Source of the DNA: Luteimonas terrae
GTDB lineage: Bacteria > Pseudomonadota > Gammaproteobacteria > Xanthomonadales > Xanthomonadaceae
DNA length: 64,000 nucleotides
Assembly (NCBI RefSeq): GCF_004358165.1
Contig: NZ_SMTG01000002.1
Coordinates: 1,798,001-1,862,000, forward strand
Reading direction: 5' to 3'
The notes under the pieces were generated by a model. It worked only from the letters and a program-made list of their open reading frames with translations, did not search any database and was not told the DNA's origin. Below are positions 23,891 through 42,294 of this stretch, in pieces; position 1 is the stretch's first letter, and each line of letters starts with the position of its first letter. A program made the position numbers and the translations under genes.

Positions 23891-23891
23891 C

Positions 23892-24410
23892 TCAGCGGCC
23901 CTCCCCGGCCGGCGCAGCGCGCACTGCGCCGAGGAACTGGTTGAAACCGAAGACCACCATCAGCGCACCGCCGAGCGACAACGGCAGATAGTTGATGCTC
24001 TGCGGCAGCTGCGCGCCGGCCGCCTTGATGTGCAGGCCGTCGACGAGCAGCACCGCGCCCCACCAGGCGAGCACCGCGCCGATCGCCACGATCACCAGCG
24101 GCACCAGCAGCGTCACCAGCCGGCGGATCGCCGGGCGCATGTGGTCCTGCAGCAGGAAAAAGCCGAAGTGGCGGTTGGTGTGCACGCCGGCGGCGGCGCC
24201 CAGGCTCATCGCGACACTGAGCAGCAGCAGCGTGACCGGCTCGGTCCAGCTCGGCGAATCGTTGATGACGTAACGCGCGAACACCTGCCAGCCCTGCACG
24301 ACGACCAGCCCGGCGAGGGCGGTCGCCGCGATGGCGATGACGAAATCGGCGAGCCGGTCGAGCGCGGTCCTGGGGGCACCATCGGGCGCGAGGGTCGTGT
24401 CTTCGGACAT
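23892..24410 (-). CDS. dctQ: TRAP transporter small permease, DctQ type
   Basis: A 172-residue membrane protein with four predicted membrane segments. The family motif region VFARYVINDSPSWTEPVTLLLL is present in shortened form here as QVFARYVI and WTEPVTLLL. It bridges the periplasmic binding protein and the large permease. The ATG at 24410 is the first that gives a normal DctQ N-terminus; the ribosome site (GGAACC) is weak, so coupling from the upstream dctP (25 bp) may help. Same operon as dctP, dctM and the hydratase gene. Confidence 0.9.
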   Translation of the reverse strand: MSEDTTLAPDGAPRTALDRLADFVIAIAATALAGLVVVQGWQVFARYVINDSPSWTEPVTLLLLSVAMSLGAAAGVHTNRHFGFFLLQDHMRPAIRRLVTLLVPLVIVAIGAVLAWWGAVLLVDGLHIKAAGAQLPQSINYLPLSLGGALMVVFGFNQFLGAVRAAPAGEGR

Positions 24411-24435
24411 CGTGGGTTCCGTGAAGCGTGAAGGG

Positions 24436-25431
24436 TCAGGCCAGCTCGCGGATGCGGGCGTAGAGCGCCTGCAGTTCGGGCTGACGCAGGTAACGGTCGC
24501 GCAGCGGACGCGCCGCCTCGCGGAAGGCGTCCATATCGACCTCGTTGAACGCGATGCCGTAATCGGCCACCGCCGTGCGTGCGGCACCTTCGGACTCGTC
24601 CCACAACTTGCGCATCACCGGCACCGATGCACGCGCGGTGTCGATCAGCAGGTCACGGTCGCCCGGGCGCAACGCGTCCAGCGAGCGGCGCGAGATCAGC
24701 AGGATGTCCGGCGCATAGGAGTGCTCGCTCTGCGACCAGAAGCGTGCCGCCTCGAAATGCCGGCTGGAATGGAAGCTGCGCATGTTGTTCTCGGCGCCGT
24801 CGATCATGTGCGTCTCCATGCCGGAGAACGTGTCGCCCAGCGACATCGGCGTCGGGTTCGCACCCAGCAGGCGCACCAGGTCGATGAACATGTCCGACGA
24901 GGCCACGCGCAGCTTGAGGCCATGCAGGTCCTTCGGCGTCACGATGGGGTGGCGCGTGTTGTAGAAGCAGCGCGCGCCGCTGTCGTAAACCGCAAGACCC
25001 ACGAGGTCGCGCGTGCCGAAACCGTCGAGCACGGTCTGCGCGATGCCGGTGTCGAGCGCATGGCGCATGTGCGCGACCGAATCGAACGCATACGGCAGGC
25101 ACAGCGCCGTGGTCAGCGGAAATGCATTGTTCAGCGCACCCGCGTAGACACGCGTCATGTCGATCGCGCCGAAGCGCGCCATGTCGATCGCTTCGGCCTC
25201 GCGACCGAGCTGGCCGGAGTGGTACTGGCGCAGGCGCACCCGGCCCTGCGTTTCGCGCTCGAGCGTTTCGCCGATCCAGCGCACCGCCTCGACGGTCGGA
25301 TAGTTCGATACGTGTACGTCGGTGGCGGTCAGCACGGTGGCCGCATCATCGGCGCGCAGCGCGCGGGGCAGCAGCGGCGCCGCGCACAAGGCACCAATGC
25401 CGGCAGCGAGGAAGGCGCGGCGGCTGGTCAT
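24436..25431 (-). CDS. dctP: TRAP transporter substrate-binding protein, DctP type
   Basis: A 331-residue periplasmic binding protein with a twin-arginine-like signal (TSRRAFLAAGIGALCAAPLL). The mature domain shows DctP landmarks: GRVRLRQYHSGQLG, a carboxylate-binding Arg region in GLKLRVASSDMFIDLVRLLG, and TPMSLGDTFSGMETHMIDGAENN. It captures an organic acid substrate and hands it to DctQ/DctM. The start overlaps the hydratase stop by 4 nt (ATGA). Use of the Tat path is unusual for DctP proteins but is only predicted from the RR motif. Confidence 0.92.
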   Translation of the reverse strand: MTSRRAFLAAGIGALCAAPLLPRALRADDAATVLTATDVHVSNYPTVEAVRWIGETLERETQGRVRLRQYHSGQLGREAEAIDMARFGAIDMTRVYAGALNNAFPLTTALCLPYAFDSVAHMRHALDTGIAQTVLDGFGTRDLVGLAVYDSGARCFYNTRHPIVTPKDLHGLKLRVASSDMFIDLVRLLGANPTPMSLGDTFSGMETHMIDGAENNMRSFHSSRHFEAARFWSQSEHSYAPDILLISRRSLDALRPGDRDLLIDTARASVPVMRKLWDESEGAARTAVADYGIAFNEVDMDAFREAARPLRDRYLRQPELQALYARIRELA

Positions 25432-26276
25432 GGGCTCGATTCCTCGGCAGTCGCGGCGACGACGGTCGCGCGGATTTCGCCGCGGCCTTCGAACACCACG
25501 TGTGCGCGCTGGCCCGGCAGAATGTCATGGATACCGGTGGCATTTCCGGTCGCGATCAGTTCGCCGCGCTTGAGCGGGCGTCCGCGCCGCGCCGAACGCG
25601 ACAGTGCGAACGCGAATGCGGCGCGCAGGCCCCCAGGCAGCGTCGTCGCGCCACCGGTGCCGACGACGGCGTCGTCGATGCGGCTCTCGGCGCGCAGCGT
25701 GGCTTCGTCGAGCGAGGTCCAGTCCGGAATCTCGGCGCCGACCACCAGGCCGTTGTTGTTGCCGAAGTCCGAGACCACCACGCGCGGGCCCAGCACATTG
25801 ATCGTCGCCAGCGGGCTGCTCGCCACTTCCAGGCCGACGAACAGCGTCGACGGCAGCGCGGCCGCTTCGTCAGGCGTCCATTCGGTCTTGTCGACGGGTG
25901 CGTCGGCGTCCAGACGCAGCACGTATTCGGCCTCGATCGCGCCGAAACCGCCCGGTGCGAACACCGCGATTTCCAGACCGTCGGCGGCCTGCTGCAGATT
26001 GCGCCGGAAGATCGGGCCGAGCAGTCGCTCGTCGCCGGAGCCGTCGCGCTTCTCGGCCGCGATGTAGCCGACCTTCCAGCCCACCACGTCGTCGGACCAG
26101 CCGGCGATCGCCGCGTCCTGCACGACATAGGCGTCGACCAGCGTGTCGGGGATGGTGCCGGGGAAACCGGGCAGCGCGTCGCCTGCGCGGCGGGCGCGCA
26201 GGAACGCGTCGACGATGCGCGCGGTCGTGTCCGCAGGTGCGTCCTGCACATCCGGGTGTGCGGTGCCGTTGTTCAA
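25428..26276 (-). CDS. 2-keto-4-pentenoate hydratase / fumarylacetoacetase-family protein
   Basis: A 282-residue protein of the hydratase branch of the FAH superfamily. Visible landmarks are GWKVGYIAAEKRDG, LLGPIFRRNL, an acidic metal-binding pair in GAIEAEYVLRL, and VSDFGNNNGLVVG. It could hydrate or cleave a 2-keto acid that comes from uronates, but no such step is established for this clade. The best start is TTG at 26276 with AGGAG six bases upstream; the earlier in-frame ATG lies inside the operator and has no ribosome site. It heads the operon hydratase-dctP-dctQ-dctM, and its control region is shared with the divergent esterase operon. Confidence 0.82.
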   Translation of the reverse strand: MNNGTAHPDVQDAPADTTARIVDAFLRARRAGDALPGFPGTIPDTLVDAYVVQDAAIAGWSDDVVGWKVGYIAAEKRDGSGDERLLGPIFRRNLQQAADGLEIAVFAPGGFGAIEAEYVLRLDADAPVDKTEWTPDEAAALPSTLFVGLEVASSPLATINVLGPRVVVSDFGNNNGLVVGAEIPDWTSLDEATLRAESRIDDAVVGTGGATTLPGGLRAAFAFALSRSARRGRPLKRGELIATGNATGIHDILPGQRAHVVFEGRGEIRATVVAATAEESSP

Positions 26277-26329
26277 CTGGATCTCCTGGCGATCGTGCTG
26301 CGCCGCAGAAGGCGGCCGCTGGGGATGTC

Positions 26330-26358
26330 TTGTATGGTAAACCGGTGTCATCTTCAAT
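26330..26358. promoter_or_regulatory. Shared operator between divergent TRAP and esterase operons
   Basis: The dyad-like ATGGTAAACCGGTGTCAT (26334-26351) is, read on the minus strand, a near copy of the kduI operator. A weak plus-strand promoter fits around it (TTGTAT at 26330-26335, 17 bp, TTCAAT at 26353-26358). The minus-strand ATGACA could serve as a -35 for the hydratase gene, but no clear -10 follows. One site could thus control both operons. Confidence 0.6.
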
Positions 26359-26409
26359 GTGCAGTGCGTCAAAACGCAGCCGTCGGGCCTCGGGAGGGCA
26401 CGCAAACGC

Positions 26410-27369
26410 ATGTCGTGGTGGAGAACGGGAGCGTGCATCGCCGCAATGCTGTGGGTCGCAGCCACCGGTGCCGCGGGCGCCGCGGTGCCGGCGCAGGACG
26501 ATGAGGTGCCACTGCTGTCGCTGTGGGCCAGCGAGCCGGACGCCACGCCGGGGCGGATCACCGAGCGCAGCCTCGATCCGCGCGTGCCCGATCGCATCAT
26601 CGAAGACGTGCGCGCGCCCTACATCGCAGTGCATGCGCCCGCCCGCCCCAGCGGTGTCGCCCTGCTGGTGACTCCGGGCGGCGGCTACGCGCGCATCGTG
26701 CTGGACAAGGAAGGCACGGCGCTGTTGCCCGCCTTCGTGGAGGCTGCCGGCATCACCCTGTTCGTGCTGCGCTACCGGCTGCCCGACGCGTCGCATGCGG
26801 AAGGCGCCGATGCACCGCTCGTCGATGCCCAGCGCGCGATGCGGACGATCCGCGCGCACGCAAAGGATTACGGCATCGATCCCGGACGCATCGGCGTCAT
26901 GGGATTCTCCGCCGGCGGCCATGTCGCAGCGCGGCTGGCCACGGCGCGCGACGCCGCGTATATGCCGCGCGACGCGATCGACGCATACGCCTGGCGACCG
27001 GACTTCGCCCTGCTGATCTACCCGGTGATCTCGCTCGAGCCCGACATCGCACATACGGGCTCACGCACGCGCCTGCTGTCGGCCGCAGGCGATGCCGGGA
27101 TCGCGACGCGCGAACGCTTGTCGCCCGCGCTGCACGTCGGCGCGCACACGCCGCCGCTGTTCCTGCTGCACGCACAGGACGACGACGTCGTGCCGGTCGG
27201 CAACACGCTGGCGATCCACGCGGCGGCGCTGGCTGCCGGCGCGCCGGCATCGCTGCACATCTTCCCCACCGGCGGCCACGGCTTCGGCGTGCGCGACGCG
27301 CATGGCCCGCTGGCCCGCTGGCCCCGCCTTGCGATCGACTGGATCGACGCGCTGGACACTTCGCCATGA
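26410..27369 (+). CDS. Exported alpha/beta-hydrolase esterase (acetyl-esterase-like)
   Basis: A 319-residue protein with a signal peptide (about 1-30) and an alpha/beta-hydrolase domain. The oxyanion region is TPGGGYARIV, the nucleophile Ser is in GFSAGGH, the Asp in QDDDVVP and the His in GGHGFG. The layout resembles bifunctional acetyl/feruloyl esterases and xylan- or pectin-acetyl esterases of carbohydrate loci. ATG at 26410 follows GGGAGGG. Its stop overlaps the next esterase gene (ATGA). It is likely to remove acyl groups from pectin fragments; the exact substrate is inferred. Confidence 0.85.
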   Translation: MSWWRTGACIAAMLWVAATGAAGAAVPAQDDEVPLLSLWASEPDATPGRITERSLDPRVPDRIIEDVRAPYIAVHAPARPSGVALLVTPGGGYARIVLDKEGTALLPAFVEAAGITLFVLRYRLPDASHAEGADAPLVDAQRAMRTIRAHAKDYGIDPGRIGVMGFSAGGHVAARLATARDAAYMPRDAIDAYAWRPDFALLIYPVISLEPDIAHTGSRTRLLSAAGDAGIATRERLSPALHVGAHTPPLFLLHAQDDDVVPVGNTLAIHAAALAAGAPASLHIFPTGGHGFGVRDAHGPLARWPRLAIDWIDALDTSP

Positions 27370-28988
27370 CCCTGCCCCCGTCTTCCGACGATCATCCCGA
27401 CGACCCGCGCCGGCGGCGCCTGCTGCAGGCCGGCGCCCTCGCCGGCGGCCTGGCCGTGCTGCCCGGTACGCTGGCCGCTACCGTGGCGCGCACGACCACC
27501 GCACGCACGCGTGCAGGCCGCATCGGCGGCACGGTCGAGGACGGCGTCCATGTCTTCCGCGGCATCCCCTACGGCGCCGACACCGCGCCGCGGCGCTTCC
27601 AGCCCGCGCTCCCGGAGCTCGCGTGGCGGGGCGTGCGCGACTGCACGCGTTACGGCGCCTCGACCGCGCAGCCCGGACGCGACGGGCCGGGCAGCGAGGA
27701 TTGCCTGTTCCTCAACGTCTGGACGCCGGGCCTGGCCGACGGCGCGCGCCGGCCGATCCTGGTCTACATCCACGGCGGCGGCTTCAACAACGGCTCGGGC
27801 AGCGATCCGCTCTACGACGGCGGCGCCTTGTGCCGGCACGGCGACGTCGTGGTGGTCACGCTCAATCACCGCCTCAACGCGTTCGGTTATCTGTACCTGC
27901 GCGACCTCGGCGGCGAGGCCCTGCAGCACTCGGGCAACGTCGGGCAGCTCGATCTGGTGCAGGCGCTGCAGTGGATCGCGCAGCACGCGCAGGCCTTCGG
28001 CGGCGACGCCGCCAACGTGACCGTGTTCGGCCAGTCGGGCGGTGGCGCCAAGATCGCCACCCTGATGGCGATGCCGGCGGCGCAGGGGCTGTTCCACCGC
28101 GCCTGGACGATGAGCGGGCAGCAGGTCACCGCCGCCGGGCCGCGCGCGGCGACACAGCGGGCGGAGATCTTCCTCGGCGCCCTGGGCCTCAAGGCAACCG
28201 ACGTCGAGCGCCTGCGCACGCTTCCGATGCAGGCCCTGATCGAGGCGCAATCGGTGCGCGACCCATCGCGCGTGGAGAGCAGCGGGCTGTATTTCGGCCC
28301 GGTGGTCGACACCGTCACCCTGCCCCGGCATCCGTTCTGGCCCGACGCACCGCCGCAGTCGGCGGCGATTCCGATGGTCATCGGCAACACCCGCGACGAG
28401 ACGCGCGCCTTCCTCGGCAACGATCCGGACCACTTCGCGCTGACCTGGGAGACCTTGCCGGCGAAGCTGCGCACGCAGCAGTTCGTCGATCTCGACCCGG
28501 CCGTCGTCGTCGCCGAATACCGGCGGCTGTATCCCGACTACACGCCGTCCGAGGTGTTCTTCGCCGCCACGACGGCCGGGCGCTCCTGGCGCGGCGCCGT
28601 GGAGGAACTCGAGGTGCGCGCGTCGCAGGGCGCGAACACCTGGGCCTACCAGCTCGACTGGCATCCCGACACCGAAGAAGGCCGGCGCACGCGGGCCTTC
28701 CATACGCTCGACATTCCGCTCGTGTTCGACACCATCGACGCGGCGGGTTCGAATACCGGCACCGATGCGCGCGCACGTGCGATGGCCGCGACGATGCGCG
28801 ACGCTCTGCTGGCGTTCGCCCGCACCGGCAACCCGGACCACGCGGGCATGCCGCACTGGGCGCCCTACTCGCTGGCGCAGCGCGAAACGATGGTCTTCGA
28901 TACGCCGAGCCGCCTCGTCGACGACCCGCGCGGTGGCGAGCGCCGTCTCTACCGCCAGGCGCCGTTCGTGCAGCGCGGCACCCAGTAA
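27366..28988 (+). CDS. Type-B carboxylesterase, Tat-exported
   Basis: A 540-residue esterase of the carboxylesterase/cholinesterase family. A twin-arginine signal (DPRRRRLLQAGALAGG) comes first, then family motifs EDCLFLNVWTP, the oxyanion segment YIHGGGFNNGSG, and the nucleophile in FGQSGGGAKI; the C-terminal part runs to RLYRQAPFVQ. Length fits the family. The start overlaps the previous gene by 4 nt. Its place among acetylesterases and pectinases suggests cleavage of ester groups on pectin, but type-B esterases are broad and the substrate remains open. Confidence 0.87.
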   Translation: MTLPPSSDDHPDDPRRRRLLQAGALAGGLAVLPGTLAATVARTTTARTRAGRIGGTVEDGVHVFRGIPYGADTAPRRFQPALPELAWRGVRDCTRYGASTAQPGRDGPGSEDCLFLNVWTPGLADGARRPILVYIHGGGFNNGSGSDPLYDGGALCRHGDVVVVTLNHRLNAFGYLYLRDLGGEALQHSGNVGQLDLVQALQWIAQHAQAFGGDAANVTVFGQSGGGAKIATLMAMPAAQGLFHRAWTMSGQQVTAAGPRAATQRAEIFLGALGLKATDVERLRTLPMQALIEAQSVRDPSRVESSGLYFGPVVDTVTLPRHPFWPDAPPQSAAIPMVIGNTRDETRAFLGNDPDHFALTWETLPAKLRTQQFVDLDPAVVVAEYRRLYPDYTPSEVFFAATTAGRSWRGAVEELEVRASQGANTWAYQLDWHPDTEEGRRTRAFHTLDIPLVFDTIDAAGSNTGTDARARAMAATMRDALLAFARTGNPDHAGMPHWAPYSLAQRETMVFDTPSRLVDDPRGGERRLYRQAPFVQRGTQ

Positions 28989-29026: not shown

Positions 29027-29902
29027 ATGTCCAGATATCTCGCGCTCGCCCTGGGCGCCTGCCTGTGGCCGCCCGCGCCCGCACACGCCGACGACGATCC
29101 GATGCGACCGCCGGTCACGCCGATCCGCGCGAGCAAGATCGTGCTCGTCGGCGATTCCACCACCGCCGTCCAGGGTGGCTGGGGCGGCGCGTTCTGCGAT
29201 CGCCACGTCGCCTCGTTCCTGGCCTGCACCAACCTCGCCCGCGGTGGACGCAGCACCTACAACTATCGCGCCGAGGGCTCGTGGGACATCGCACTGCACG
29301 AGATGCGCGCCGGTCCGTTCGATGCGGTCTACGTGCTGGTGCAGTTCGGTCACAACGACCAGCCGGGCAAGCCCGGCCGATCGACCGATCTGGCCACCGA
29401 GTATCCCGACAACCTGCGTCGCTACGTCGCCGACATCCGCGCCGCCGGTGCGCATCCGGTACTGGTGACGCCCCTGACACGCCGACAGTTCGAGAACGGC
29501 GTGCTGATCGACGATCTGGCGCCCTGGGCCGAGGCGACGCGCGCGGTCGCGCGCGAACTCGACGTGCCGCTGGTCGATCTGCATGCGCGCAGCCGCGCCC
29601 TCGTGCAGGGCATGGGGGCGGTGCTGGCGATGCGCGCGGCGCAGCGTCCGGCCGCCCCCGAGCAGGTCGTCGCGGCGCAGGCGGGCACGACGATCGGCAC
29701 GCCGCCGTCCGCCGCCCCCGCGGGCACGACACCTGCGCCGCCTGCCGCGCAGGACAACGCGGCGGCCGAGCCGATGGGCCAGGCCAAGCTGGCATTCGAC
29801 TACACCCATCTCGGGCCCGAGGGCGCCGCGCTGTTCGCGGCGATCGTCGCCGACGAGCTGGCGCAGCAGGTGCCGGCGCTGCGGCGCAACCTGATTCCCT
29901 GA
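29027..29902 (+). CDS. Rhamnogalacturonan acetylesterase-type GDSL hydrolase
   Basis: A 291-residue exported SGNH esterase. The signal peptide ends near PAHADD; nucleophile Ser43 is in VGDSTTA, the oxyanion Gly and Asn are in LARGGRSTYN and FGHNDQPG, and the catalytic His is in DYTHLGPEGA. An Ala/Pro-rich low-complexity insert (about residues 200-245) sits between the core and the His block; most relatives lack it. It is a second acetylesterase beside the cupin fusion at 12.7 kb, and ends the plus-strand esterase operon. AGGAA precedes the ATG. Confidence 0.88.
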   Translation: MSRYLALALGACLWPPAPAHADDDPMRPPVTPIRASKIVLVGDSTTAVQGGWGGAFCDRHVASFLACTNLARGGRSTYNYRAEGSWDIALHEMRAGPFDAVYVLVQFGHNDQPGKPGRSTDLATEYPDNLRRYVADIRAAGAHPVLVTPLTRRQFENGVLIDDLAPWAEATRAVARELDVPLVDLHARSRALVQGMGAVLAMRAAQRPAAPEQVVAAQAGTTIGTPPSAAPAGTTPAPPAAQDNAAAEPMGQAKLAFDYTHLGPEGAALFAAIVADELAQQVPALRRNLIP

Positions 29903-29989: not shown

Positions 29990-32900
29990 TCAGCGCACCT
30001 CGACGACGTTGTTCAGGCGCGTCACTTCCTCGCCGTCATCCGGCAGCGCGATGCGCACGCGGCCGCCGCGCGGATCCACGCCGGCGGCATGCGCCAGACG
30101 CAGCGTGGCCTTGCGCGGCTGCAGATCGCGCGGCGCGGCGAGTGCGGGAATGTCGGCGCGGGCGAATTCACGCCCACGCGCATCTTCCAGGATCGCCACG
30201 CCGCCCGGTGCGTCGGCGTGACCGAGGCTGTGCACGGTCACCTCGACCGCGCCATCGACCACGCGCACGTCGCCGCGGCCGATGCCGAGGTCGGCGCGCA
30301 GTTCGACCGGCGTGCCGGCCTCGATCAGCTCGAACTCGAACACCTGGGTCTGGCCCGCCGCGAACGACAGGTCCACCGACGTGCTGGACTCCAGCAGCAC
30401 CTCGCGCGTCTGCGCATGGCCGTCGATGGTCTCGTCGCCGTTGCGGTCCACGCCGCTGGTGATGCGCCAGCGTCCGGGGGCGACGTTCCAGCCGGTCATC
30501 GCCGCGTTCGCGGTGCGGGCGCCGGTGTTGTGCGCGATGACCTTGAAGGCCTCGCGCGACGGCGCCGAGACCAGCAGCGCCACCTGCTCGGCCTGCGCAT
30601 CGTCGGCGAAACGCCAGCTCACCGTGTGACCCGGATACGTGGTGTTGCGGCGCAGGGCCAGGCCGCCCAGACGGGCGCGCTGCAGGAATTCGCTCGGCGC
30701 CTCGACGCGGTCCGACCACCAGTGGCCTTCGGTGTTCATGTACTCGCGCATCGCCTTGGCCTGGATGCCGTCGGCGTGCAGCGCTTCGAGGTAGGCCTTG
30801 TTGCCGGTCTGCTGCCAGGCGAACACGCTCTGCACGCCGGTGTCGCCCTTGTCGGCCGACTGCTGCAGGCGCTTGCCCCAGTCCTCGCGCCTGCCGAGCA
30901 CGTCGACGTAGTTCTCGGCCAGGTTCGACAGACCCGCCGGTCCGCTGCGGTCCACGCGGTACTGCAAGGGCCGCAAATACCTGTCGTCGCCGGTCCAGCG
31001 CCACGCCGCCCAGTACAGGTGCATGGTGTCGGCGCCGCCCGAGCCGTCGAACAGATCGCCGCCGCGGCGCTCGCCGGTGGCCCAGTTGATCTCGTTGGGC
31101 AGCTGCCAGGCGCCCTTCTCGTCGGTATAGGCGTGGGCGAGATAGCCGTCGGCCAGCCCGGTGATCATCGCGCGACTGGTCGGATCGGCATTGAACACGC
31201 CGAGCAGGAAGGCCGGGTGCAGCACCGGGAACGAATACGGCTTCTGCCACTGCCAGCGCGGCTCGCGATAGACCTTGTTGCCGCCGAACCAGTTGCTGGA
31301 GAACAGCACGTGGCCTTGGGAATTGCGCAGCACGATCTTCTCGTCGAGATCGTGCACGGTTTCCATCAGGCGCGTCATCGTCAGCGGATCGCCCCAGTTG
31401 AGCAGCGCCATCGCGCTGTTGGTGTTGATGCCTTCCTCGTAGGCATGCAGCTCGTCGGTCTCGATCGTCGACAGGCCGCCGGCGAACATGTCGTTCGCGT
31501 AGGCGGCATCGGCCAGTGCGGTGATCGAAGCGTTGATCTTGTCGGGCATCACGCCCATCAGCGCCAGGCCCGGCCACTGCTGCGACAGGTCGCTGTCGTC
31601 GGAGATGCCGCCGCCGAAATCGCCGAATTCCACCTGGCGCTCGTCGATCCACCATTCGATGAAGCGGCGCACGGCCTTGAGGTCCTCGAGCTGACGGAAG
31701 GCCCACAGCGGCACGCCGGCCGGCGCCTCGGGCTGCTCGAACGGCGGCAGGCCCTGGCTGTTGTAGCTCATGTAGTTCCAGTAGCGGCGACCGAGTTCGT
31801 GATCCGGATCGACGCGCAGCAGATCGCTGATGTCGGCGAACACGCGCTGGTAGAGGCGCTGGCGCTTGGAGGTGGTGTGCTCCTCGACGAGGAAGCCCCA
31901 GTTGTCGCGCACCTGGTTGAAGCGGTCGGCGACGTGCTCAGCGATGGCTTCTTCGCGCGGCTTGTAGACCATGCGCACTTCGGCTCCGTCGAGCGTCGCG
32001 GCATCGAAGCCCGGCGCCGCCGAGGCGATGCTGATCCACAGGCTGTCGTCGGTGAGGATGCGGTCGCGCAGGTCCAGCCACAGGGTGCGTTTCTGGCCCG
32101 GCGTCACCGAGACCGACACGTCGATCATGTCGCGCGCCGGCCAGATCGGATCCTTGATGCGGATGTTGAGCGGAATGGCCGCCGCGCCCTCGACGCTGTG
32201 CGTCGCCGGCAGATCCAGCGCGGGAATGTCGATGGCGACGCCGTCCAGCCCGTCGTACATGTTCTCCCAGCTGTGCGCCCAGCTGCGGATCAGCGGCTGC
32301 GCGGCGGGCGCATTGCCGATGCCCGAGGGAATGAGCACGTGCACGATCGGCTGCTTCGCTTCGCGCACCGGCGGGGTCCTGCGTTCGCGGAACGCGGCGC
32401 GGCCCGGCAGCGCCAGCACCATGCTGCGTTCCTCGGGCGCGTAGCGACCTTCGATGAAGCTGCGCAGGTCGGCGAGATTGGTGTAATCGATCTCGGCATT
32501 GCTGCGGATCGTGTAGGCCTGCTTCACCGAGCCTTCGGGCTCGGCGGCATCGCTGACGTGGTAGGCCCAGATTTCCTGGATCGGCGTTTCCTGCGCGGTG
32601 TTGGCGAAGCGCAGCTGGCCGCCGCGTCGGGTGTCGAAGCTGTCGACCGTGCGCACCACGCCCTGCGGCCGCGCGAACAGCGGCTGCAGGGTCTCGGCAT
32701 CGGCGCCATAACTCGCTTCGCCGTAGGCGGCGCCGCGCAATTCGATGCGGTTGAAGGGCTCGTCGGGCAGGGTCAGGTCCAGCGCCTTGCCGCCGTCGAC
32801 GTAGGTGTTCCAGTCGGGCAGCTGGAAGTAGTCGTCGCGCCCGCGCAGCCGCGAGCGGTTGTAAACGCCCGGCCACGTGGTTTCGGCGATGCCGTCGGTC

Positions 32901-33814
32901 GCCTTCCACATCCACTGCTTCAGATCCTTGGTGTCGGCGAACTCGACCTTGCGGATCGTCGTCACCGGCGTGGCGAGCAGCGGCGGCGCGGCGCCGTTCG
33001 ACCAGCCGTGGCGGAAGAGCCACGCGGCATGGCGGTTGTTGGGCGCGACTGATGCGGTCGGCGCGCGGAAGCTGCGCACCGCCTGCACGCCGCTGGCATC
33101 GAGCATGCGGTCGTGCACGCGGATGTCGTCGAAATCACTACCGCGCAGGAAGTTGTAGCGGCTCTGCACCTGGTGCGGCGCGAGGATGCGTGCGGCCAGG
33201 CCGAACTGGTCCAGGCCCGCGTCGTAGTCGAAGCCGGCCTGCGCATTCGCCGGGCGCGCCTCTCGCGCGACCTCGCGGCCATCGACGTACAGGCGCACGC
33301 CGATGGTCTCGTCCCAGGCAAACGCCACGTGCGTCCACGCATCGGCCGCGGGCACGCTGTCCATCTTGAACGACACGCGCGTGCGCGCCAGATTGGCGTC
33401 GGTCACGAATGCATCGAAACCTTCTCCGTTCCAGTCGATGCGCAGCCAGGCCATGTCCCAGCTGGAATGGTCGGCATAGCCGACGCGGAAGATCACGAAC
33501 GGCGCCTCGCCGACCGGATCGCGCGAGCGCCAGAAGAAGCTCAGCGTGCCGCGCGCGGCATCGATGTTGCCGGGCGCGTTCCACGACAGCACCCCGTCGT
33601 CGTCCCATTCGATCGCGCGGCCGCGCACGCCGTCGTCGACCAGGCGCACCTTGTCCTTGAAGTTCGGTACCGGATCGCCGACCGCGGTGTCGGCGACGAA
33701 ATCCTGATCGGCCGACACGTGGAACAGCAGGCGGGGCGTGTCGTCGGCATGGACGATGGCGGACAGGCCCAGCGCACAGGCGACGGCCAGGACTCGCTTC
33801 GACATCTGGTTCAA
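29990..33814 (-). CDS. Very large exported multidomain protein of unknown activity (LamG-like, helical core, CARDB-like end)
   Basis: A 1274-residue protein I cannot place in a named enzyme family. A signal peptide (about 1-24) is followed by a LamG/concanavalin-like domain (about 28-200), a beta-rich middle (about 240-610), a helical, possibly toroidal domain (about 620-1000) with conserved-looking acidic and aromatic clusters (EFGDFGGGISDDSDL near 731, NWFGGNKVYREPRW), then beta-sandwiches and a CARDB-like end from about 1160. Size, export and position beside PL10 and CE8 genes suggest a periplasmic lyase or hydrolase acting on pectin oligomers. TTG at 33814 has GAGGAG at ideal spacing; the ATG at 33805 is the alternative. 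Confidence 0.8.
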   Translation of the reverse strand: MNQMSKRVLAVACALGLSAIVHADDTPRLLFHVSADQDFVADTAVGDPVPNFKDKVRLVDDGVRGRAIEWDDDGVLSWNAPGNIDAARGTLSFFWRSRDPVGEAPFVIFRVGYADHSSWDMAWLRIDWNGEGFDAFVTDANLARTRVSFKMDSVPAADAWTHVAFAWDETIGVRLYVDGREVAREARPANAQAGFDYDAGLDQFGLAARILAPHQVQSRYNFLRGSDFDDIRVHDRMLDASGVQAVRSFRAPTASVAPNNRHAAWLFRHGWSNGAAPPLLATPVTTIRKVEFADTKDLKQWMWKATDGIAETTWPGVYNRSRLRGRDDYFQLPDWNTYVDGGKALDLTLPDEPFNRIELRGAAYGEASYGADAETLQPLFARPQGVVRTVDSFDTRRGGQLRFANTAQETPIQEIWAYHVSDAAEPEGSVKQAYTIRSNAEIDYTNLADLRSFIEGRYAPEERSMVLALPGRAAFRERRTPPVREAKQPIVHVLIPSGIGNAPAAQPLIRSWAHSWENMYDGLDGVAIDIPALDLPATHSVEGAAAIPLNIRIKDPIWPARDMIDVSVSVTPGQKRTLWLDLRDRILTDDSLWISIASAAPGFDAATLDGAEVRMVYKPREEAIAEHVADRFNQVRDNWGFLVEEHTTSKRQRLYQRVFADISDLLRVDPDHELGRRYWNYMSYNSQGLPPFEQPEAPAGVPLWAFRQLEDLKAVRRFIEWWIDERQVEFGDFGGGISDDSDLSQQWPGLALMGVMPDKINASITALADAAYANDMFAGGLSTIETDELHAYEEGINTNSAMALLNWGDPLTMTRLMETVHDLDEKIVLRNSQGHVLFSSNWFGGNKVYREPRWQWQKPYSFPVLHPAFLLGVFNADPTSRAMITGLADGYLAHAYTDEKGAWQLPNEINWATGERRGGDLFDGSGGADTMHLYWAAWRWTGDDRYLRPLQYRVDRSGPAGLSNLAENYVDVLGRREDWGKRLQQSADKGDTGVQSVFAWQQTGNKAYLEALHADGIQAKAMREYMNTEGHWWSDRVEAPSEFLQRARLGGLALRRNTTYPGHTVSWRFADDAQAEQVALLVSAPSREAFKVIAHNTGARTANAAMTGWNVAPGRWRITSGVDRNGDETIDGHAQTREVLLESSTSVDLSFAAGQTQVFEFELIEAGTPVELRADLGIGRGDVRVVDGAVEVTVHSLGHADAPGGVAILEDARGREFARADIPALAAPRDLQPRKATLRLAHAAGVDPRGGRVRIALPDDGEEVTRLNNVVEVR

Positions 33815-33858: not shown

Positions 33859-34920
33859 TTACGGATTGTCGGCCTGACGGCCCTCCAGCGCATGGCGTTG
33901 GCGCCACTTGCGCAGGTCCCGCGCCAGCAGGGCCTGGGGCCACACGCCGTACCAGGCGTAGCCGGTGCGGCGTTCGGCCGACATGTCTTCCAACGACGCG
34001 ACGATGGTGCCGCCGCGGTCGACCAGCAGGGGCTGCTGCCGCTGCAGGTCGTAGAAACGCGCCCAGACCGTCGACCCCGGCCGGGCGATGAGCCGCACAG
34101 CGCGCGGGCGCTGGCCGGCGGTACCGACACGCTCGATCGCGGTGTCCTCCAGATCGTGCGCGTCGAACCAGCGTGCCGCGTGTTCGATCGCATCGACGAT
34201 GCGCGGCGACGGCGGCTGGCGCATCAGCAGGCGCACGATCGTCACCGACTCGGCGGTCGCCAGCGACGGCAGCTCGTAACTGCGGGCGGTGGCCGGCTGC
34301 AGCGTGGTCTCGTCGTACTGCGCGGCCCAGATGGTCGGTGTGCCGTCGATGCGCACCTGCAGATCGAGGATCAGTGCGAGTGCGCGCTCGACCGCGTTCG
34401 CGGCAGCCTCGCCGCGCAGCGGCTGCAACGATGCCACCGCGCCTTCGCCTTCGGCGATGTCCTGCAACAGGCCGACGACCTGGGTCATGGCGTCGTCGTT
34501 GAAGGTCACCTGGCCGCGATAGCTGGAACGGTCCGGATGGAACTGCGGCCAGCCGCCGTTGGCGTACTGCGCGGCGAGCAGATAGTCCACGCCGCGCACC
34601 GCGGCATCGCGATAGCGCGCGTCGCCATGCATGCGCCAGGCCTGGCTCAGATGCGCGATCTCGCGCGTCGTCGCATCGTTGTCGATGGTGGCGTCGTCGG
34701 CGCGGTCGGCCGCCGCGAGTGCGGCGACGGCGGCGGCCTCGAAGGGCTTGGCATAGTCGATCGCCTTGCCGTCGAGATGCTTGGGCCAGCCGCCCGACGC
34801 GGTCTGCGCCTGCAGCATGCGTTCGGCGACGGGATCGGCGCCGGCGGCGAACGCGCCGTGGGCGGCCAGCAGTCCGGCCACCAGCAGCGCGGCCTGCCAC
34901 GCACGCGTCGGACGTTTCAT
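33859..34920 (-). CDS. Pectate lyase, polysaccharide lyase family 10
   Basis: A 353-residue exported lyase with an alpha/alpha-toroid sequence signature. A signal peptide (about 1-25) is followed by family motifs QTASGGWPKHLD, IDNDATTREI, QYANGGWPQFHPD, VTFNDDAMTQV and EDMSAERRTGYAWYG. PL10 enzymes cut polygalacturonate by beta-elimination with calcium, leaving unsaturated ends that feed KduI/KduD after further trimming. The stop overlaps nothing but the gene starts within 4 nt of the pectinesterase end (34917), so the two are one operon. Probably a substrate of the type II secretion system or periplasmic. Confidence 0.93.
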   Translation of the reverse strand: MKRPTRAWQAALLVAGLLAAHGAFAAGADPVAERMLQAQTASGGWPKHLDGKAIDYAKPFEAAAVAALAAADRADDATIDNDATTREIAHLSQAWRMHGDARYRDAAVRGVDYLLAAQYANGGWPQFHPDRSSYRGQVTFNDDAMTQVVGLLQDIAEGEGAVASLQPLRGEAAANAVERALALILDLQVRIDGTPTIWAAQYDETTLQPATARSYELPSLATAESVTIVRLLMRQPPSPRIVDAIEHAARWFDAHDLEDTAIERVGTAGQRPRAVRLIARPGSTVWARFYDLQRQQPLLVDRGGTIVASLEDMSAERRTGYAWYGVWPQALLARDLRKWRQRHALEGRQADNP

Positions 34921-35912
34921 TCGAACGGTCTCCAGTCCTGCATCAGCGTGGCGGTGTCGGGACCGGCGTCAGTGTCGCGCAGCCACGACACGCGTCCTTG
35001 CAGTGCGCTGCCCGTCCCGGTGTTGGCATGCTCGGCGAACCGCGCGGTGTCCCGGTTCGCGGGCTTGCCCCAGTCGTGCCAGCCCTCGGACGGCACGGGT
35101 GCATCGATGCGGCAGCGTTCGAAGCGCGTGGCGCCGTGCGGGCGCCAGGGTCGACCGAGATGGACCCGGGTCACGGCCGGTGCGGCCGTGATCGTGCAGT
35201 CCCGGAACACGAAGCCGTGCGCCTGCTCCGCCGGCGTCGACGGTGCGGCGAGGTAACCGTCGCCGACCGAATGCAGCGTGCAACGCTCGAACAGCGCGGT
35301 CGCCGCGCCGAACACGTAGTCGACCGTGCCTTCGATGCGGCAATCGCGGAACCAGGCCCGCGTGCCGGCCTTGCGCAGGTACAGCGTGTCCTGGTGGCCG
35401 AGCAGATGCACGCCGTCGAAGGACGCGCGCGTACCGTCGACCACCAGCGCCACCGCCTGGCCGACGGGGCCGGCGTCGTTGGCGATGGTCAGGTGTTCGG
35501 CGTGGAAATCGTCGGCGCGGACGAACATTGTCGCCGAACCGTAGGTGCCGAAGGGCTGGCCGCTGCGCGGGTCGATCCGGGCAGCGTCATGGTCGTGCAC
35601 GATACGGGTCTGCGTCGCGCCCGCACCGGTGAGCCGCAACGCGGGCGCCCCGGGCGGCACGTCGACCACGCCGCGCCAGGTGCCGGCCGCGATCCGGATC
35701 GTGGCCGCATCACCCTGGGCGACGGCGGCTTCGATCGCTGCCTGCACGCTGCCGTACGCATCGGCGCCGGGGCCGACGTCGAACGTGCGTGCGGCCTGCG
35801 CCGACTGCGCGAACAACGCACACGACAGTGCGAGCCAGACACGCCCCCGCCACCGTCGCCGGAGCGACGGCAGCGGGTGACGCAGGGAGGCCTCAGAAGC
35901 GATAGCGCGCAC
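34917..35912 (-). CDS. Pectinesterase, carbohydrate esterase family 8
   Basis: A 331-residue pectin methylesterase with a beta-helix sequence. Conserved blocks are in order: YGSATMFV, GQAVALVVDG, HLLGHQDTLYL (catalytic Asp and Gln), GTVDYVFGAA (second Asp) and LGRPWRPHG (Arg and Trp). The N-terminus has Arg-rich residues and a hydrophobic stretch ending FAQSAQA, so it is exported. The best start is GTG at 35912, which overlaps the end of the receptor gene by 20 nt; a later GTG at 35840 is possible. It demethylates pectin so that the adjacent PL10 lyase can act. Confidence 0.92.
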   Translation of the reverse strand: MRAIASEASLRHPLPSLRRRWRGRVWLALSCALFAQSAQAARTFDVGPGADAYGSVQAAIEAAVAQGDAATIRIAAGTWRGVVDVPPGAPALRLTGAGATQTRIVHDHDAARIDPRSGQPFGTYGSATMFVRADDFHAEHLTIANDAGPVGQAVALVVDGTRASFDGVHLLGHQDTLYLRKAGTRAWFRDCRIEGTVDYVFGAATALFERCTLHSVGDGYLAAPSTPAEQAHGFVFRDCTITAAPAVTRVHLGRPWRPHGATRFERCRIDAPVPSEGWHDWGKPANRDTARFAEHANTGTGSALQGRVSWLRDTDAGPDTATLMQDWRPFE

Positions 35913-38900
35913 CGACGTAGTACTGGCGACCCGTCGTGGTGTAGCGGTCGGGCAGCATCAGGTCCGAATCGACGTAGCGGCGGTCGGGCGTGTCGAGCAG
36001 ATTGATCGCCTCGAACGTCAGGCTGAGCTTGTCGTTGACCTTCCAGGACGTGTTGAAGTCCACGTTGCGCACGGCGTGCTTGCCGGTCACGTCCGCGGTG
36101 CCGAACTGGTTGCCGTCGAGATCCCACACGTTCTCGCGGCTGAGGACCTCGCCGATGTAGCCGTCGCGATAGCTGGTCGACACGCGGGCGCTGAAGCGGC
36201 CGTCGTCGTAGTACAGCGTGGCGTTGTACGAGTTCGGCGACAGGTTCACCAGCTGGTTCTCGGTGACCTGGGTGACGATGGCGGTGTTGTTGCTGGCCGC
36301 GGTACTGAACAGATACTCGATGTCCGAATCGACGTGCGTGTAGTTCATCTGCACGCCGAACTTGCTCCAGAAGCCCGGCAGGAAGGTGAAGGGCTGCTGG
36401 TAGGTCAGCTCCCAGCCCTTCAGCGGACCGCCCGGCGTGTTGTAGTAGCTCTGCACGTTGAAGATGGTGTCGGCGGTGAAGCCCGGCGGCAGCAGGTCGA
36501 GCGAGTAGCCCAGATCCGACCAGGTGCTGAGCAGGCGGGTGCGCTGCACGTAGCTCTCGATGTCCTTGTAGAACACCGCCGCCGACAGCAGGCCGCCTTC
36601 GGCGAAGTACCACTCGGCGCTGAGGTCGTAGTTGGTCGAACGGAAGGGATCGAGCTTCGGATTGCCGAGGTTGATCGAGTAGTAGCGGCCGTCGTCGAAG
36701 AAGTTGGTCGGGCCGCCCGTCACGCTGGGCGACATGTAGGTCAGGGTCGGGCGGGCCATCGTCTTGGCCGCACCGAAACGCAGCACGAAGGTGTCGCTCA
36801 GATCCCAGGACAGGTTCAACGAGGGCAGCACGTCGGTGTAGTTGTGGCCGACGACGCTCTCGACGACGAAGCGGTCGCCCGCGGCGGACGTGGCATTGGC
36901 CACGCCGAACACACGCTCGCAGTTGGCCTCGCCGCCGGTGGGGCACGGCGCCCAGCCGGCCGCGCTGATCTGGGTCTTCACCAGGCGCACGCCGACATTG
37001 CCGCGCAGCGCGCGGTCGAGCAGATCGGTGTTGAAATCCAGCTGGGCGTAGGTCGCCATGCTGCGCTCGTTGACCGAGAAGTTGTTGTTGGCCGAACCGA
37101 AGTGGCCGATGCCGGCCAGTCGGTAGTCGCCGCCGGGCACGCCGTTGTCGGCGTTGCTGTAGATGTTCAGCGCCGCGGCGATCTTGTCGAAGTCCGGAAT
37201 CAGCCACGAGCCGGGCATGTTGCCCGAGAGGTTCTTGCCGAAGCCCTCGAGCGTGGTGCTCAGATCACCGATGGTCACACCGGCCGGCAGCGCCTGCGGC
37301 AGACGGCCGTAGCTGATGTGCCGGTACTCCTCGCTGCGCATGTCGTAGTCCTTCCACGCCAGGCCCGTGCGGAAGGTGAAGGTGGGATCGAGATCGAACG
37401 ACAGGTCGACCTTCGCCGAATCGAAGGCGTTGCTGACGTAGTTCGGGTTCAGGCGCACCTCGCTGATGTTCGCGCCGCGCGCGGTGCCGTTGCTGTTGAC
37501 CGGCACCGCGCCATAGCCGAGCCACTGCCAGGCACCGGCGCTGCCGGTGTCGAAGGGGAAGGTCATGCTCGGCATCTCGGGATTGCCGCGCAGGTCCAGC
37601 ACGAAGCCGTCGAGATTGGAATTGTCGAAGCTGACCATCGAGAACACCGGACGCGAATAGTCCGACGACGAATGACCGACCGTCGCGTCCAGACGCACGG
37701 CGTCGTTGAACCGGTGCTCGAGCTGCAGGCTGAACTGCTTGAACTCGGTCGACTCCTCGATCTGGCTCGACTCGGTGCGGAAGTCGACGTTGTCGAACAC
37801 CGCGTACTGCAGGCGGTTCCGATCGTCGACCTCGGCCTCGCGCACGACGATCTGGGTCTTGCCGCCGAGGTTCGCCGCGCGGTGCAGGTTGGCACCCAGC
37901 GAATCCTCGCGCTGGTCCTTCTCCAGCTTCGAGTACAGGCCGTCCACGCTCAGCAGGGTGTCGTCGCTGATGCGGAACTGGAACGCGCCGGTCACGCCTA
38001 GACGCTCGATGTCGTGCTGGGTGCGCACGTAGCGCGGATAGCGCGGAATCCACGCGTTGGTCGCCGTCTCGTAGGCGGCGATGTTCTCGGGCGTCGCCGC
38101 CGGACGCGGCAGGCCGGTGCCGCAATTGGCGGCGTCGATGCCGTAACCGCCGTAGCCGTTGTTGCGGTCCTGGTTGGCCTGGCTCCCGACGCCCGGACGG
38201 GTCTCGTTGGCCAGCGGATTGCGTGGCGTCTGCGGGTTGTAGCCGGCCGGCGAACAGAAGCCGTAGATGCCGTTGTTGGCCGCGTTGGACTGGTTCGAGT
38301 TGCGGTGGTTGCCGTGTTCCCAGCGGATCGGGTTGTAGCCTTCCTCGAAGATCGTGCGCTGGCTGTAGGAAGCCGACAGCAGTGCGCCGACGCGGCCGTC
38401 GGCCCAGGTGTTGCTGATCAGGCCGGAGATGCGCGGATCGCTTTCTTCCGACAGCTCGTTGTAGCCGACCTGCGCGCTGGCCGAGGCGCGGAAGCCCTTG
38501 AAGTCGAACGGGCGCGATCCGCGCAGATCGACCGTCGAACCCAGCGAGCCTTCGTCCATCTGCGCCGATTGGGTCTTGTTGACCTTGACCTGGCTGAAGA
38601 GTTCGGAGGCGAAGGTATTGAAGTCGAAGCCGCGCGAGCGGTTCACGCCGGCGCTGCCACTGCCGGCGGTGGCCAGTGCCTCGAGACCGTTCAGGCGCAC
38701 GCGGGTGAAGTCCGAGCCCAGGCCGCGCACGGAGATACGCTGGCCTTCGCCGCCCTCGCGATCGATCGAGATGCCGGCGATGCGCTGCAGCGATTCGGCG
38801 AGGTTCTGGTCGGGGAACTTGCCGATGTCCTCGGCGAAGATCGCATCGACCTGCTCCACGCTGTAGCGCTTCTCGTCGAGCGACTTCTGCAGGCTTTCGC

Positions 38901-39051
38901 GATAGCCGGTGACGGTCACCGCATCGAGATCCACGGCGCGCGCGTCCTGCGACGACTCCTGCGCGAGTACAGGCGACGCGAGCACGGCGGCGATACCGGC
39001 CGCAAGCAAGGTAACCGGTGTCTTCCGACGGTGACGGACGCGATCCATCAT
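35893..39051 (-). CDS. TonB-dependent receptor, pectin-locus receptor 1
   Basis: A 1052-residue outer-membrane receptor. An N-terminal signal region (RKTPVTLLAAGIAAVLASPVLAQE) is followed by a TonB-box-like LDAVTVTG, a plug (EDIGKFPDQNLAESLQRI, RGLGSDFTRVRLNG) and a long barrel ending in YVGARYRF. The segment DIGKFPDQNLAESL defines the large oligosaccharide-receptor class common in Xanthomonas, Caulobacter and Alteromonas sugar loci. It is first in an operon with the pectinesterase, pectate lyase and possibly the large unknown gene. Start: tandem ATGs at 39051 and 39048 with GGGGAG upstream. Likely cargo is oligogalacturonides. Confidence 0.93.
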   Translation of the reverse strand: MMDRVRHRRKTPVTLLAAGIAAVLASPVLAQESSQDARAVDLDAVTVTGYRESLQKSLDEKRYSVEQVDAIFAEDIGKFPDQNLAESLQRIAGISIDREGGEGQRISVRGLGSDFTRVRLNGLEALATAGSGSAGVNRSRGFDFNTFASELFSQVKVNKTQSAQMDEGSLGSTVDLRGSRPFDFKGFRASASAQVGYNELSEESDPRISGLISNTWADGRVGALLSASYSQRTIFEEGYNPIRWEHGNHRNSNQSNAANNGIYGFCSPAGYNPQTPRNPLANETRPGVGSQANQDRNNGYGGYGIDAANCGTGLPRPAATPENIAAYETATNAWIPRYPRYVRTQHDIERLGVTGAFQFRISDDTLLSVDGLYSKLEKDQREDSLGANLHRAANLGGKTQIVVREAEVDDRNRLQYAVFDNVDFRTESSQIEESTEFKQFSLQLEHRFNDAVRLDATVGHSSSDYSRPVFSMVSFDNSNLDGFVLDLRGNPEMPSMTFPFDTGSAGAWQWLGYGAVPVNSNGTARGANISEVRLNPNYVSNAFDSAKVDLSFDLDPTFTFRTGLAWKDYDMRSEEYRHISYGRLPQALPAGVTIGDLSTTLEGFGKNLSGNMPGSWLIPDFDKIAAALNIYSNADNGVPGGDYRLAGIGHFGSANNNFSVNERSMATYAQLDFNTDLLDRALRGNVGVRLVKTQISAAGWAPCPTGGEANCERVFGVANATSAAGDRFVVESVVGHNYTDVLPSLNLSWDLSDTFVLRFGAAKTMARPTLTYMSPSVTGGPTNFFDDGRYYSINLGNPKLDPFRSTNYDLSAEWYFAEGGLLSAAVFYKDIESYVQRTRLLSTWSDLGYSLDLLPPGFTADTIFNVQSYYNTPGGPLKGWELTYQQPFTFLPGFWSKFGVQMNYTHVDSDIEYLFSTAASNNTAIVTQVTENQLVNLSPNSYNATLYYDDGRFSARVSTSYRDGYIGEVLSRENVWDLDGNQFGTADVTGKHAVRNVDFNTSWKVNDKLSLTFEAINLLDTPDRRYVDSDLMLPDRYTTTGRQYYVGARYRF
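39010..39022 (-). promoter_or_regulatory. Operator-like sequence inside the 5' coding region of receptor 1
   Basis: Minus strand GACACCGGTTACC, encoding Thr-Pro-Val-Thr of the signal sequence, is identical over 13 bp to the kduI operator core. It lies inside a 20-bp block identical in the paralogue at 42061-42080. The codons used (ACA, GTT, TTG) are rare for such a GC-rich gene, hinting at a constraint on the DNA itself. Confidence 0.45.
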
Positions 39052-39124
39052 GGCTGTGCTCCCCGAGAAACGTGATGTGTTGCCGATGCCGGAGTGCGCC
39101 CTGCGCGTCTCCACGGCCGGAACG

Positions 39125-39197
39125 AATGACACCGCTGGTCATTCGAGGCGCGTACGCTAACAGCGTGACAGGCGTGCGACATCTTGCAACGCAACAA
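39125..39197 (-). promoter_or_regulatory. Promoter and operator of receptor 1
   Basis: Minus-strand elements, from the gene outwards: operator AATGACACCGCTGGTCATT (39125-39143, plus-strand reading), extended -10 TGTTAGCGT (hexamer 39154-39159), and box TTGCAACGCAACAA (39184-39197). The box centre falls at about -43.5. The operator would sit at about +4 to +22 and block early transcription. The remaining gap to 39263 shows nothing further. Confidence 0.65.
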
Positions 39198-42104: not shown

Positions 42105-42144
42105 GTTGGTCCCCTCCCAGGGTGCGAAGCGATCTCGGCGCGTA

Positions 42145-42172
42145 TTGACTGCAGGGTCGCGCTTGTTATGGT
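42145..42172 (+). promoter_or_regulatory. Candidate kdgK promoter
   Basis: Plus-strand TTGACT (42145-42150), 16-bp spacer, TATGGT (42167-42172), about 120 bp before the kdgK ATG. The operator copy at 42187-42205 would lie just downstream of the transcription start, so it could repress kdgK and receptor 2 together. Confidence 0.45.
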
Positions 42173-42186
42173 GTCCGCCGGTGCCG

Positions 42187-42248
42187 AATGACACCGCGGG
42201 CCAAACGCTAGCAGAGCGGATTCTGCAAAGCATGTTGCGCCGCCACAT
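42187..42248 (-). promoter_or_regulatory. Promoter and operator of receptor 2
   Basis: Operator-like AATGACACCGCGGGCCAAA (42187-42205; second half poorly kept), extended -10 TGCTAGCGT (hexamer 42205-42210) and a weaker box TTGCGCCGCCACAT (42235-42248) whose centre is again at about -43.5. Same order as the promoters of receptor 1 and GH43. Confidence 0.55.
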
Positions 42249-42294
42249 CCACCCTGCCCGTACCTCCGGGCGATCACCAGAAGGCCTTGCCGCG

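Follow-up and report, generated by a model that had tools for sequence, protein, structure and literature searches.

A LamG-domain protein beside the pectin genes of Luteimonas terrae as a possible exported oligogalacturonide lyase

The enzymes named as producers of the KduI substrate in a 2025 survey are UGL, OGL and YteR (PMC12838403). In Xanthomonas campestris, the gene for the receptor XCC0120 has a pectin methylesterase gene and a pectate lyase gene as neighbours, and polygalacturonate induces the receptor; of the strains compared in that study, Xcc alone seemed to possess XCC0120-0122, whereas the genes on either side are contiguous in Xcv and Xac (Blanvillain et al., 2007, PMC1790865). 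The present analysis concerns a stretch of 64,000 nucleotides from Luteimonas terrae (contig NZ_SMTG01000002.1; hereafter the window, with positions counted from its first letter) and, within it, one gene for a LamG-domain protein that stands in a pectin locus together with genes for KduI and KduD (Table 1). This protein is read, with confidence somewhat short of even, as an oligogalacturonide lyase that is exported, acts in exo fashion and belongs to a sequence family unnamed in the libraries searched.

Judged by its gene content, the genome is able to consume unsaturated uronate yet is without a recognised producer of it, because KduI and KduD are present and the models for GH28, GH88/105, PL22 and UxaC were unmatched. 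These searches were carried out genome-wide with Pfam models as stand-ins for the families (E 0.001 for GH88/105), and PL9 and PL2 were not searched. The first-pass annotation of the window had noted that GH28 and GH88/105 were missing nearby and had named the protein the best candidate for the absent oligomer-degrading step; the first point holds for the whole genome and for PL22 likewise, and the second is strengthened by the genome-wide gap and by KduI, KduD and a uronate-type solute-binding protein of a tripartite ATP-independent periplasmic (TRAP) transporter in the window. It had left the choice between lyase and hydrolase undecided, and here the pathway favours a lyase freeing unsaturated monomers from oligogalacturonides over a hydrolase. 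The nearest structures to the TRAP binding protein DctP were 4n8y and 4x8r, which are reported as bound to galacturonate and glucuronate, respectively (PMC11668362), and related TRAP binding proteins, for example 4MHF, bind hexuronates according to a further report (PMC7660916). Release of monomers outside the cytoplasm would agree with this, since DctP is closest to monouronate binders. The sugar kinase of the locus matched the 2-keto-3-deoxygluconate kinase 2afb with E 3e-54, second only to an unnamed PfkB kinase.

The gene co-occurs with the pathway in other genomes. Among 247 genomes of the same family, 51 carry the protein at nearly full length and 65-100% identity, one copy (G175) having an internal stop; a genome with a 36% match confined to residues 183-316 in the LamG region (G018) was excluded from this number. 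KduI/IolB-family genes, counted by PF04962, which covers IolB too and does not tell KduI apart from it, were found in 46 of these 51 genomes and in 50 of the 196 without the protein (Fisher P 1e-17, relatedness ignored). Where both were present, they shared a contig in 36 of 46 genomes and lay within 20 kb in 24. GH88 was matched in 13 of the 247 genomes (E 0.001), of which two belong to the 51 and one of those two is weak, and PL22 gave seven weak partial matches across the 247, all short of the cut-off and all in genomes without the protein.

In GTDB genomes, 450 related stretches were confirmed by scanning, and the locus analyses used the best 80 of them; these 80 came mostly from Luteimonas, Stenotrophomonas, Xanthomonas and Pseudoxanthomonas, with two from Nitrospirillum. 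At least 8 kb were available upstream in 77 of the 80 loci and downstream in 63. Upstream (n=77), a relative of the kinase was found in 72 loci, of a TBDR_2-type receptor in 75, of a TBDR_1-type receptor in 37, of PL10 in 28 and of CE8 in 22, and the KdgK-type kinase (queried with the Novosphingobium kinase) and a TonB receptor occurred together in 72. Both PL10 and CE8 were missing upstream in 49 loci; in six of these, a PL10 relative of 38-40% identity lies downstream. The nearest matched upstream gene was a same-strand TonB receptor in 47 loci, less than 550 bases away in 45 of these. Downstream (n=63), relatives of BD-FAE were found in 42 loci, carboxylesterase in 41, DctP in 40, the hydratase-like protein in 40, GH43 in 29, the GDSL esterase in 18 and PL10 in 6. 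The core unit therefore consists of kinase, receptor and LamG protein, to which PL10 and CE8 may be added as an optional cassette. The XCC0120-0122 pattern fits such an optional cassette beside the gene for the LamG protein, if, as we infer, that gene is the one at its border. In Novosphingobium capsulatum, kduI, kduD, uxaC, GH43 and a TonB receptor share one stretch with the gene, and none of the 30 annotated features of that stretch is named pectate lyase. In the ten alphaproteobacterial neighbourhoods examined (L050-L059), KduI relatives adjoin the gene in two. Three further loci (L084, L095 and L096) have KduD and an RpiB relative downstream, with no KduI matched within the stretch, an arrangement that resembles the dhuI-type pathways outlined in the 2025 survey (PMC12838403), and one genome (G221) gave no KduI-family match anywhere.

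The gene reads from 33814 to 29990 as 1274 codons and a stop, and the plus-strand frame over the same interval is broken by a stop. The frame stays open upstream of 33814 as far as 34900. Because the codon at 33814 is TTG (LNQMSKR...), the in-frame ATG at 33805, which would give 1271 residues, is the likelier start. A Sec signal of typical form, MSKRVLAVACALGLSAIVHADD, was recognised by inspection, and by this feature of its sequence the protein is predicted to be exported. In the three annotated records seen, the database label was in each case merely "LamG domain-containing protein". PF13385 (Laminin_G_3) matched with E 5.2e-8 and 33.6 bits against a gathering score of 27.6, and LamG was matched in 17 of the 18 members of an alignment of divergent sequences (A2; 17 chosen relatives and the window protein). 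Beyond LamG, Pfam gave nothing for the whole protein at E up to 1, the GH88/GH105 (PF07470), PL22 (PF14583) and GH76 models included; NCBIfam gave no match, nor did phmmer against PDB sequences, and a profile search returned one match in the LamG region at E 0.004, one further at E 0.96 and no others. Across all 18 members of A2, Pfam found LamG, in five members also Pentaxin, which is of the same fold class, and otherwise weak, scattered matches. On these Pfam, NCBIfam and PDB searches, ordinary family membership was rejected outside the LamG domain. No paper concerning the protein was found by title or abstract, in a coverage outside which most subscription journals lie, and the available parts of PMC13282271 and PMC3551730 add nothing on this gene.

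Structure prediction with AlphaFold2 was carried out on residues 250-1175 (42 rows; mean pLDDT 78.7, pTM 0.74) and 616-1168 (49 rows; mean pLDDT 83.0, pTM 0.87). The alignments behind the work comprised 17 of 29 relatives from the same-family search with the window protein (A1), 41 loci that redundancy filtering left of 79 usable ones, L111 having been excluded because its sequence has a stop or X (A3), and 48 of 80 loci (A4); those used for structure prediction were without alphaproteobacterial rows. In the shorter model, two long helices and one short leading helix are followed by twelve main helices and then by a beta-sandwich, an arrangement read as an (alpha/alpha)6 toroid of the sugar-enzyme type, its family unassigned. 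The predicted domain at residues ~287-420 aligned in VIA-align with the CBM32 of AlyQ (Z 11.0, 2.7 Å, 102 residues aligned) and with the pectin-binding carbohydrate-binding module 2jd9 (Z 9.8, 2.8 Å, 104 aligned), residues 295-342 being of low confidence. For the barrel, the top VIA-align match was GH76 (Z 14.0, 4.4 Å, 294 aligned, 6% identity), followed by the aldolase-type AprG (Z 13.3), 3k7x (Z 13.1), GH105 4xuv (Z 12.8, 4.4 Å, 271 aligned) and the unsaturated glucuronyl hydrolases (UGL 3wiw, Z 12.8, 4.1 Å, 288 aligned; another at Z 12.2), and Z values near 14 are within the background reach of mostly helical models. With the toroid model, no PDB match of Foldseek reached E 0.001, the Agrobacterium alginate lyase 3a0o, a PL15 enzyme, appearing at a non-significant E of 0.047; absence of a family from such fold-search lists does not exclude it. 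Seven rows at E <=0.001 from a Foldseek run on the 926-residue model were left unused, as all had root-mean-square deviations of at least 13 Å and low TM. Nothing in a viral structure library matched with an E of 0.001 or below, and a viral origin was set aside, no relative having been found in the viral contigs scanned.

Most of what the first-pass annotation had described in the protein itself was borne out: the 1274-residue frame, for which it gave no strand, is real, on the minus strand and with relatives in the family genomes and GTDB stretches counted above; the product is exported and multidomain, with a LamG-like N-terminus and, in both AlphaFold2 models, a helical toroidal core; and no enzyme family was recognised. 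The proposed CARDB-like C-terminal sandwiches were not confirmed: the tail at residues 1170-1274 was unmatched in Pfam with E values up to 1, and the predicted beta-sandwich is at 1060-1168. Both acidic/aromatic motifs quoted are present; in the 18 rows of A2, to which all conservation values refer, DFGGGISDDSDL is invariant for the most part and NWFGGNKVYREPRW in part only. Invariant candidates in the toroid are D739, D740, D742, D787, E788, H790, Y792, E793, N797, H835, R850, H866, H1031, D1035 and R1036. The invariant toroid positions are clustered, 11 of 71 falling in one 17-residue window, which was equalled by 11 of 2000 random placements. Conservation over the whole protein peaks, however, at residues 307-321, DGIAETTWPGVYNRS (window positions 32852-32896), with 14 of 15 positions invariant, in a part of the CBM32-like domain modelled at pLDDT under 50. 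Because this peak falls outside the quoted toroid motifs, these do not serve to locate the active site, of which residues 307-321 may form part.

In the scheme that we infer, short homogalacturonan fragments would be supplied by PL10 and CE8 where these are present and otherwise by other enzymes or organisms, and the neighbouring TonB receptor would let them in. The LamG and CBM32-like domains would grip the galacturonan chain while the (alpha/alpha)6 toroid and beta-sandwich, acting outside the cytoplasm, would cleave terminal uronates by beta-elimination to give unsaturated monomers. The monouronates would then be imported by the TRAP system and turned into 2-keto-3-deoxy-6-phosphogluconate (KDPG) by KduI, KduD and the KdgK-type kinase. 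The predicted toroid, of a sugar-active type and with many invariant charged and aromatic residues, is counted for the lyase reading. With slightly greater reserve, the protein may be proposed as the first member of a new family of polysaccharide lyases. As an exported exo-lyase of several domains, paired with a TRAP importer, it would make monouronates outside the cytoplasm and replace the OGL (PL22)/GH105 route in Xanthomonadaceae and some alphaproteobacteria. If this is true, a function is given to a protein so far labelled only by its LamG domain, Kdu-pathway feeding is explained in Xanthomonas, Stenotrophomonas and relatives without the known enzymes, and a further tool for pectin processing is gained.

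Against the lyase reading weigh the limits on the PF04962 count and on the fold comparison given above, AprG outranking GH105 and Foldseek finding no significant match, together with a number of further observations. The toroid fold is common to hydrolases, epimerases and lyases, and the active site may sit elsewhere in the protein, because the LamG (30% invariant positions) and CBM32-like (36%) domains are more conserved than the toroid (20%). The pathway gap is not specific, since 43 of the 50 KduI-positive genomes without the protein are also without GH88, from which it follows that some other unrecognised producer of unsaturated uronate probably exists. A KduI-family match is absent in 5 of the 51 protein-bearing genomes, UxaC was matched in 21 of 134 genomes searched, 11 of the 21 carrying the protein, and all NCBIfam matches of the kinase were below cut-off. 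No query gene at all was found in three of the ten alphaproteobacterial neighbourhoods (L052, L057 and L058); both Nitrospirillum loci lacked query-gene relatives except for one 33% KduD-like match, and Pfam on ten open reading frames (ORFs) of one of them gave no pectin-pathway family. By annotation, the plasmid contexts in Sphingomonas R1 and Asticcacaulis are not pectin loci.

Three other explanations were weighed. A lyase or hydrolase acting on decorated pectin (xylogalacturonan, rhamnogalacturonan I or heavily esterified galacturonan) is unlikely. It would account for the large binding modules and for the GDSL esterase, carboxylesterase, BD-FAE and GH43 genes of the locus, all of which recur beside relatives at the downstream frequencies given above; but 34 of 63 loci keep the protein without GH43 and 45 of 63 without the GDSL esterase. 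No rhamnosidase and no gene of a rhamnose pathway could be recognised in those window genes that were scanned, which counts against this reading too, and the rhamnogalacturonan substrate suggested in the first-pass annotation is not supported. Rather unlikely, too, is an unsaturated galacturonyl hydrolase with GH88/GH105-like action in another sequence family, removing the unsaturated residue from oligomers that a lyase has made and leaving saturated galacturonate. The predicted barrel, with 4xuv and 3wiw among its matches though below GH76, AprG and 3k7x, would suit such an enzyme, as would the invariant acidic D739, D740, D742, D787, E788 and E793, a product consumed by KduI/KduD and the presence of UxaC in 11 protein-bearing genomes. 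Pfam gave no GH88 match, however, the leftover galacturonate would need UxaC, unmatched in this genome (the oxidative route was not checked), and the upstream lyase cassette is missing in 49 of 77 loci, with a PL10 relative downstream in only six of these. Least probable, and distinctly doubtful, is a protein that binds glycans at the surface or in the periplasm without catalysis, or else a side-chain glycosidase, with monomers made by another enzyme, which would agree with the high conservation of the LamG and CBM32-like domains and with the probable existence of unrecognised producers, but sits poorly with a full predicted toroid bearing invariant His, Tyr, Asp, Glu and Arg clusters and with a gene directly after the TonB receptor in 47 of 77 loci, with no PL10/CE8 between.

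Table 1. Features of the gene, its product and its neighbourhood (positions in the window; residues and invariant positions of the LamG-domain protein, the latter from A2)
Feature	Position	Strand	Basis or remark
LamG-domain exported protein, 1274 aa	29990..33814	-	ORF, relatives in genome scans
Signal peptide, residues 4-26	33737..33805	-	Inspection of sequence
LamG/concanavalin A-like domain, residues 78-240	33095..33583	-	PF13385
CBM32-like beta-sandwich, residues 287-420	32555..32956	-	VIA-align, conservation
Second beta domain, residues 465-618	31961..32422	-	Predicted secondary structure
Long helices ahead of barrel, residues 620-682	31769..31957	-	AlphaFold2 models
(alpha/alpha)6 toroid, residues 702-1056, proposed catalytic domain	30647..31711	-	AlphaFold2, VIA-align
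Motif GDFGGGISDDSDL, residues 731-743	31586..31624	-	G731, G734-736, S738, D739, D740, D742, L743 invariant
Motif TDELHAYEEGIN, residues 786-797	31424..31459	-	D787, E788, L789, H790, Y792, E793, G795, N797 invariant
Motif NWFGGNKVYREPRWQW, residues 841-856	31247..31294	-	Only R850, W856 invariant
Motif TEGHWWSDRVE, residues 1028-1038	30701..30733	-	T1028, H1031, W1033, D1035, R1036, V1037 invariant
C-terminal beta-sandwich, residues 1060-1168	30311..30637	-	Predicted secondary structure
C-terminal tail, residues 1170-1274, outside modelled range	29993..30307	-	
KdgK-type sugar kinase, steady neighbour	42295..43323	+	PDB 2afb
TonB-dependent receptor TBDR_2, steady neighbour	39315..42554	-	
TonB-dependent receptor TBDR_1, optional cassette	35893..39132	-	
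CE8 pectinesterase, optional cassette	34917..35912	-	PF01095
PL10 pectate lyase, optional cassette	33859..34920	-	PF09492; TIGR02474 above cut-off
GDSL esterase	29027..29902	+	PF13472
Carboxylesterase family protein	27366..28988	+	PF00135
BD-FAE-like esterase	26410..27369	+	PF20434
2-keto-4-pentenoate-hydratase-like protein	25428..26600	-	Weak PDB matches 2wqt/1sv6, E 6e-5
TRAP solute-binding protein DctP, uronate type	24436..25431	-	Top PDB match 4n8y, E 5e-78
TRAP membrane subunits DctQ (23892-24587) and DctM (22607-23890)	22607..24587	-	
GH43 enzyme	17539..19179	-	PF04616; GH43 structures E 9e-60
KduI, 5-dehydro-4-deoxy-D-glucuronate isomerase	15403..16251	-	NF002091 397.6 bits, cut-off 250
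KduD, 2-dehydro-3-deoxy-D-gluconate 5-dehydrogenase	14603..15385	-	TIGR01832 418.2 bits, cut-off 338.85
RpiB/LacAB family protein with DUF3666	13882-14520	-	NF006753 above cut-off; adjoins kduI, kduD
GDSL esterase fused to Cupin_2 (residues 299-364)	12691-13800	-	Like part of pectin acetylesterase PaeY, NF041897 below cut-off

Read leftwards, the locus runs from the kinase (+) through TBDR_2, TBDR_1, CE8, PL10 and the LamG protein (-) to the GDSL esterase, carboxylesterase and BD-FAE (+), and further left through the hydratase-like protein and DctP/Q/M (-), a transporter of the major facilitator superfamily (+), and GH43, LacI, KduI, KduD, the RpiB-like protein and the GDSL-cupin protein (-). 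The true start of TBDR_2 is probably further inside its ORF, because the ORF overlaps the kinase gene. The GDSL esterase next to the LamG protein is possibly a pectin acetylesterase, and the Cupin_2 domain of the GDSL-cupin protein is possibly KdgF-like. The hydratase-like protein, without a Pfam match at 0.001, is kept in 40 of 63 loci and was also found on a Novosphingobium plasmid at 37% identity. The RpiB/LacAB protein, relatives of which (91-95% identical) stand beside KduD in L084, L095 and L096, is a possible DhuI-type isomerase.

In other samples, matches were found in 5 of 321 genomes of a class sample (two in the LamG region only), 6 of 349 of a phylum sample (one in the LamG region only) and 10 of 199 from the family of an alphaproteobacterium (G772), two of these with two copies; a few genomes are common to more than one sample. 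The protein also occurs in Sphingomonadaceae and Asticcacaulis, many carriers being plant- and soil-associated bacteria, and relatives were present in 3 of 72,556 plasmid records (Novosphingobium, Sphingomonas and Asticcacaulis), the Asticcacaulis relative lying ~12 kb from a GH28-related gene. In two Xanthomonas loci (L106 and L113; G186) a second copy, partial or diverged, follows the first. One contig labelled Bacillus subtilis SK7B5 (L099) carries a Stenotrophomonas-like locus, probably because it is contaminated or bears a wrong label. A divergent alphaproteobacterial paralogue group (L047-L049, L055, L057 and L058) is 47-49% identical to the window protein; GH42 and trehalase genes lie near L057 and beta-lactamase-family genes near L055, and the substrate of the group is perhaps another.

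Compared with known systems, the protein would share with the PL22 OGL the job of freeing the KduI substrate from short galacturonides. PL22 enzymes have a beta-propeller fold, whereas the protein described here is exported, is predicted to form a toroid and has no PF14583 match. The Dickeya OGL acts in the cytoplasm, according to the 2025 survey (PMC12838403). With GH88/GH105 it has in common the predicted (alpha/alpha)6 barrel and metabolic entry via KduI, but it lacks a PF07470 match, is a large multidomain exported protein and is proposed to act without a separate lyase step. The GH76 alpha-1,6-mannanases provide its top VIA-align barrel match (Z 14.0), at 6% identity, with no Pfam GH76 match and from an unrelated locus. 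The PL15/PL17/PL21-type lyases may resemble it in the predicted succession of toroid and beta-sandwich, and of these 3a0o was listed by Foldseek at a non-significant E of 0.047, but the protein has no Pfam match to them, carries added LamG and CBM32-like domains and has a locus that points to pectin rather than alginate.

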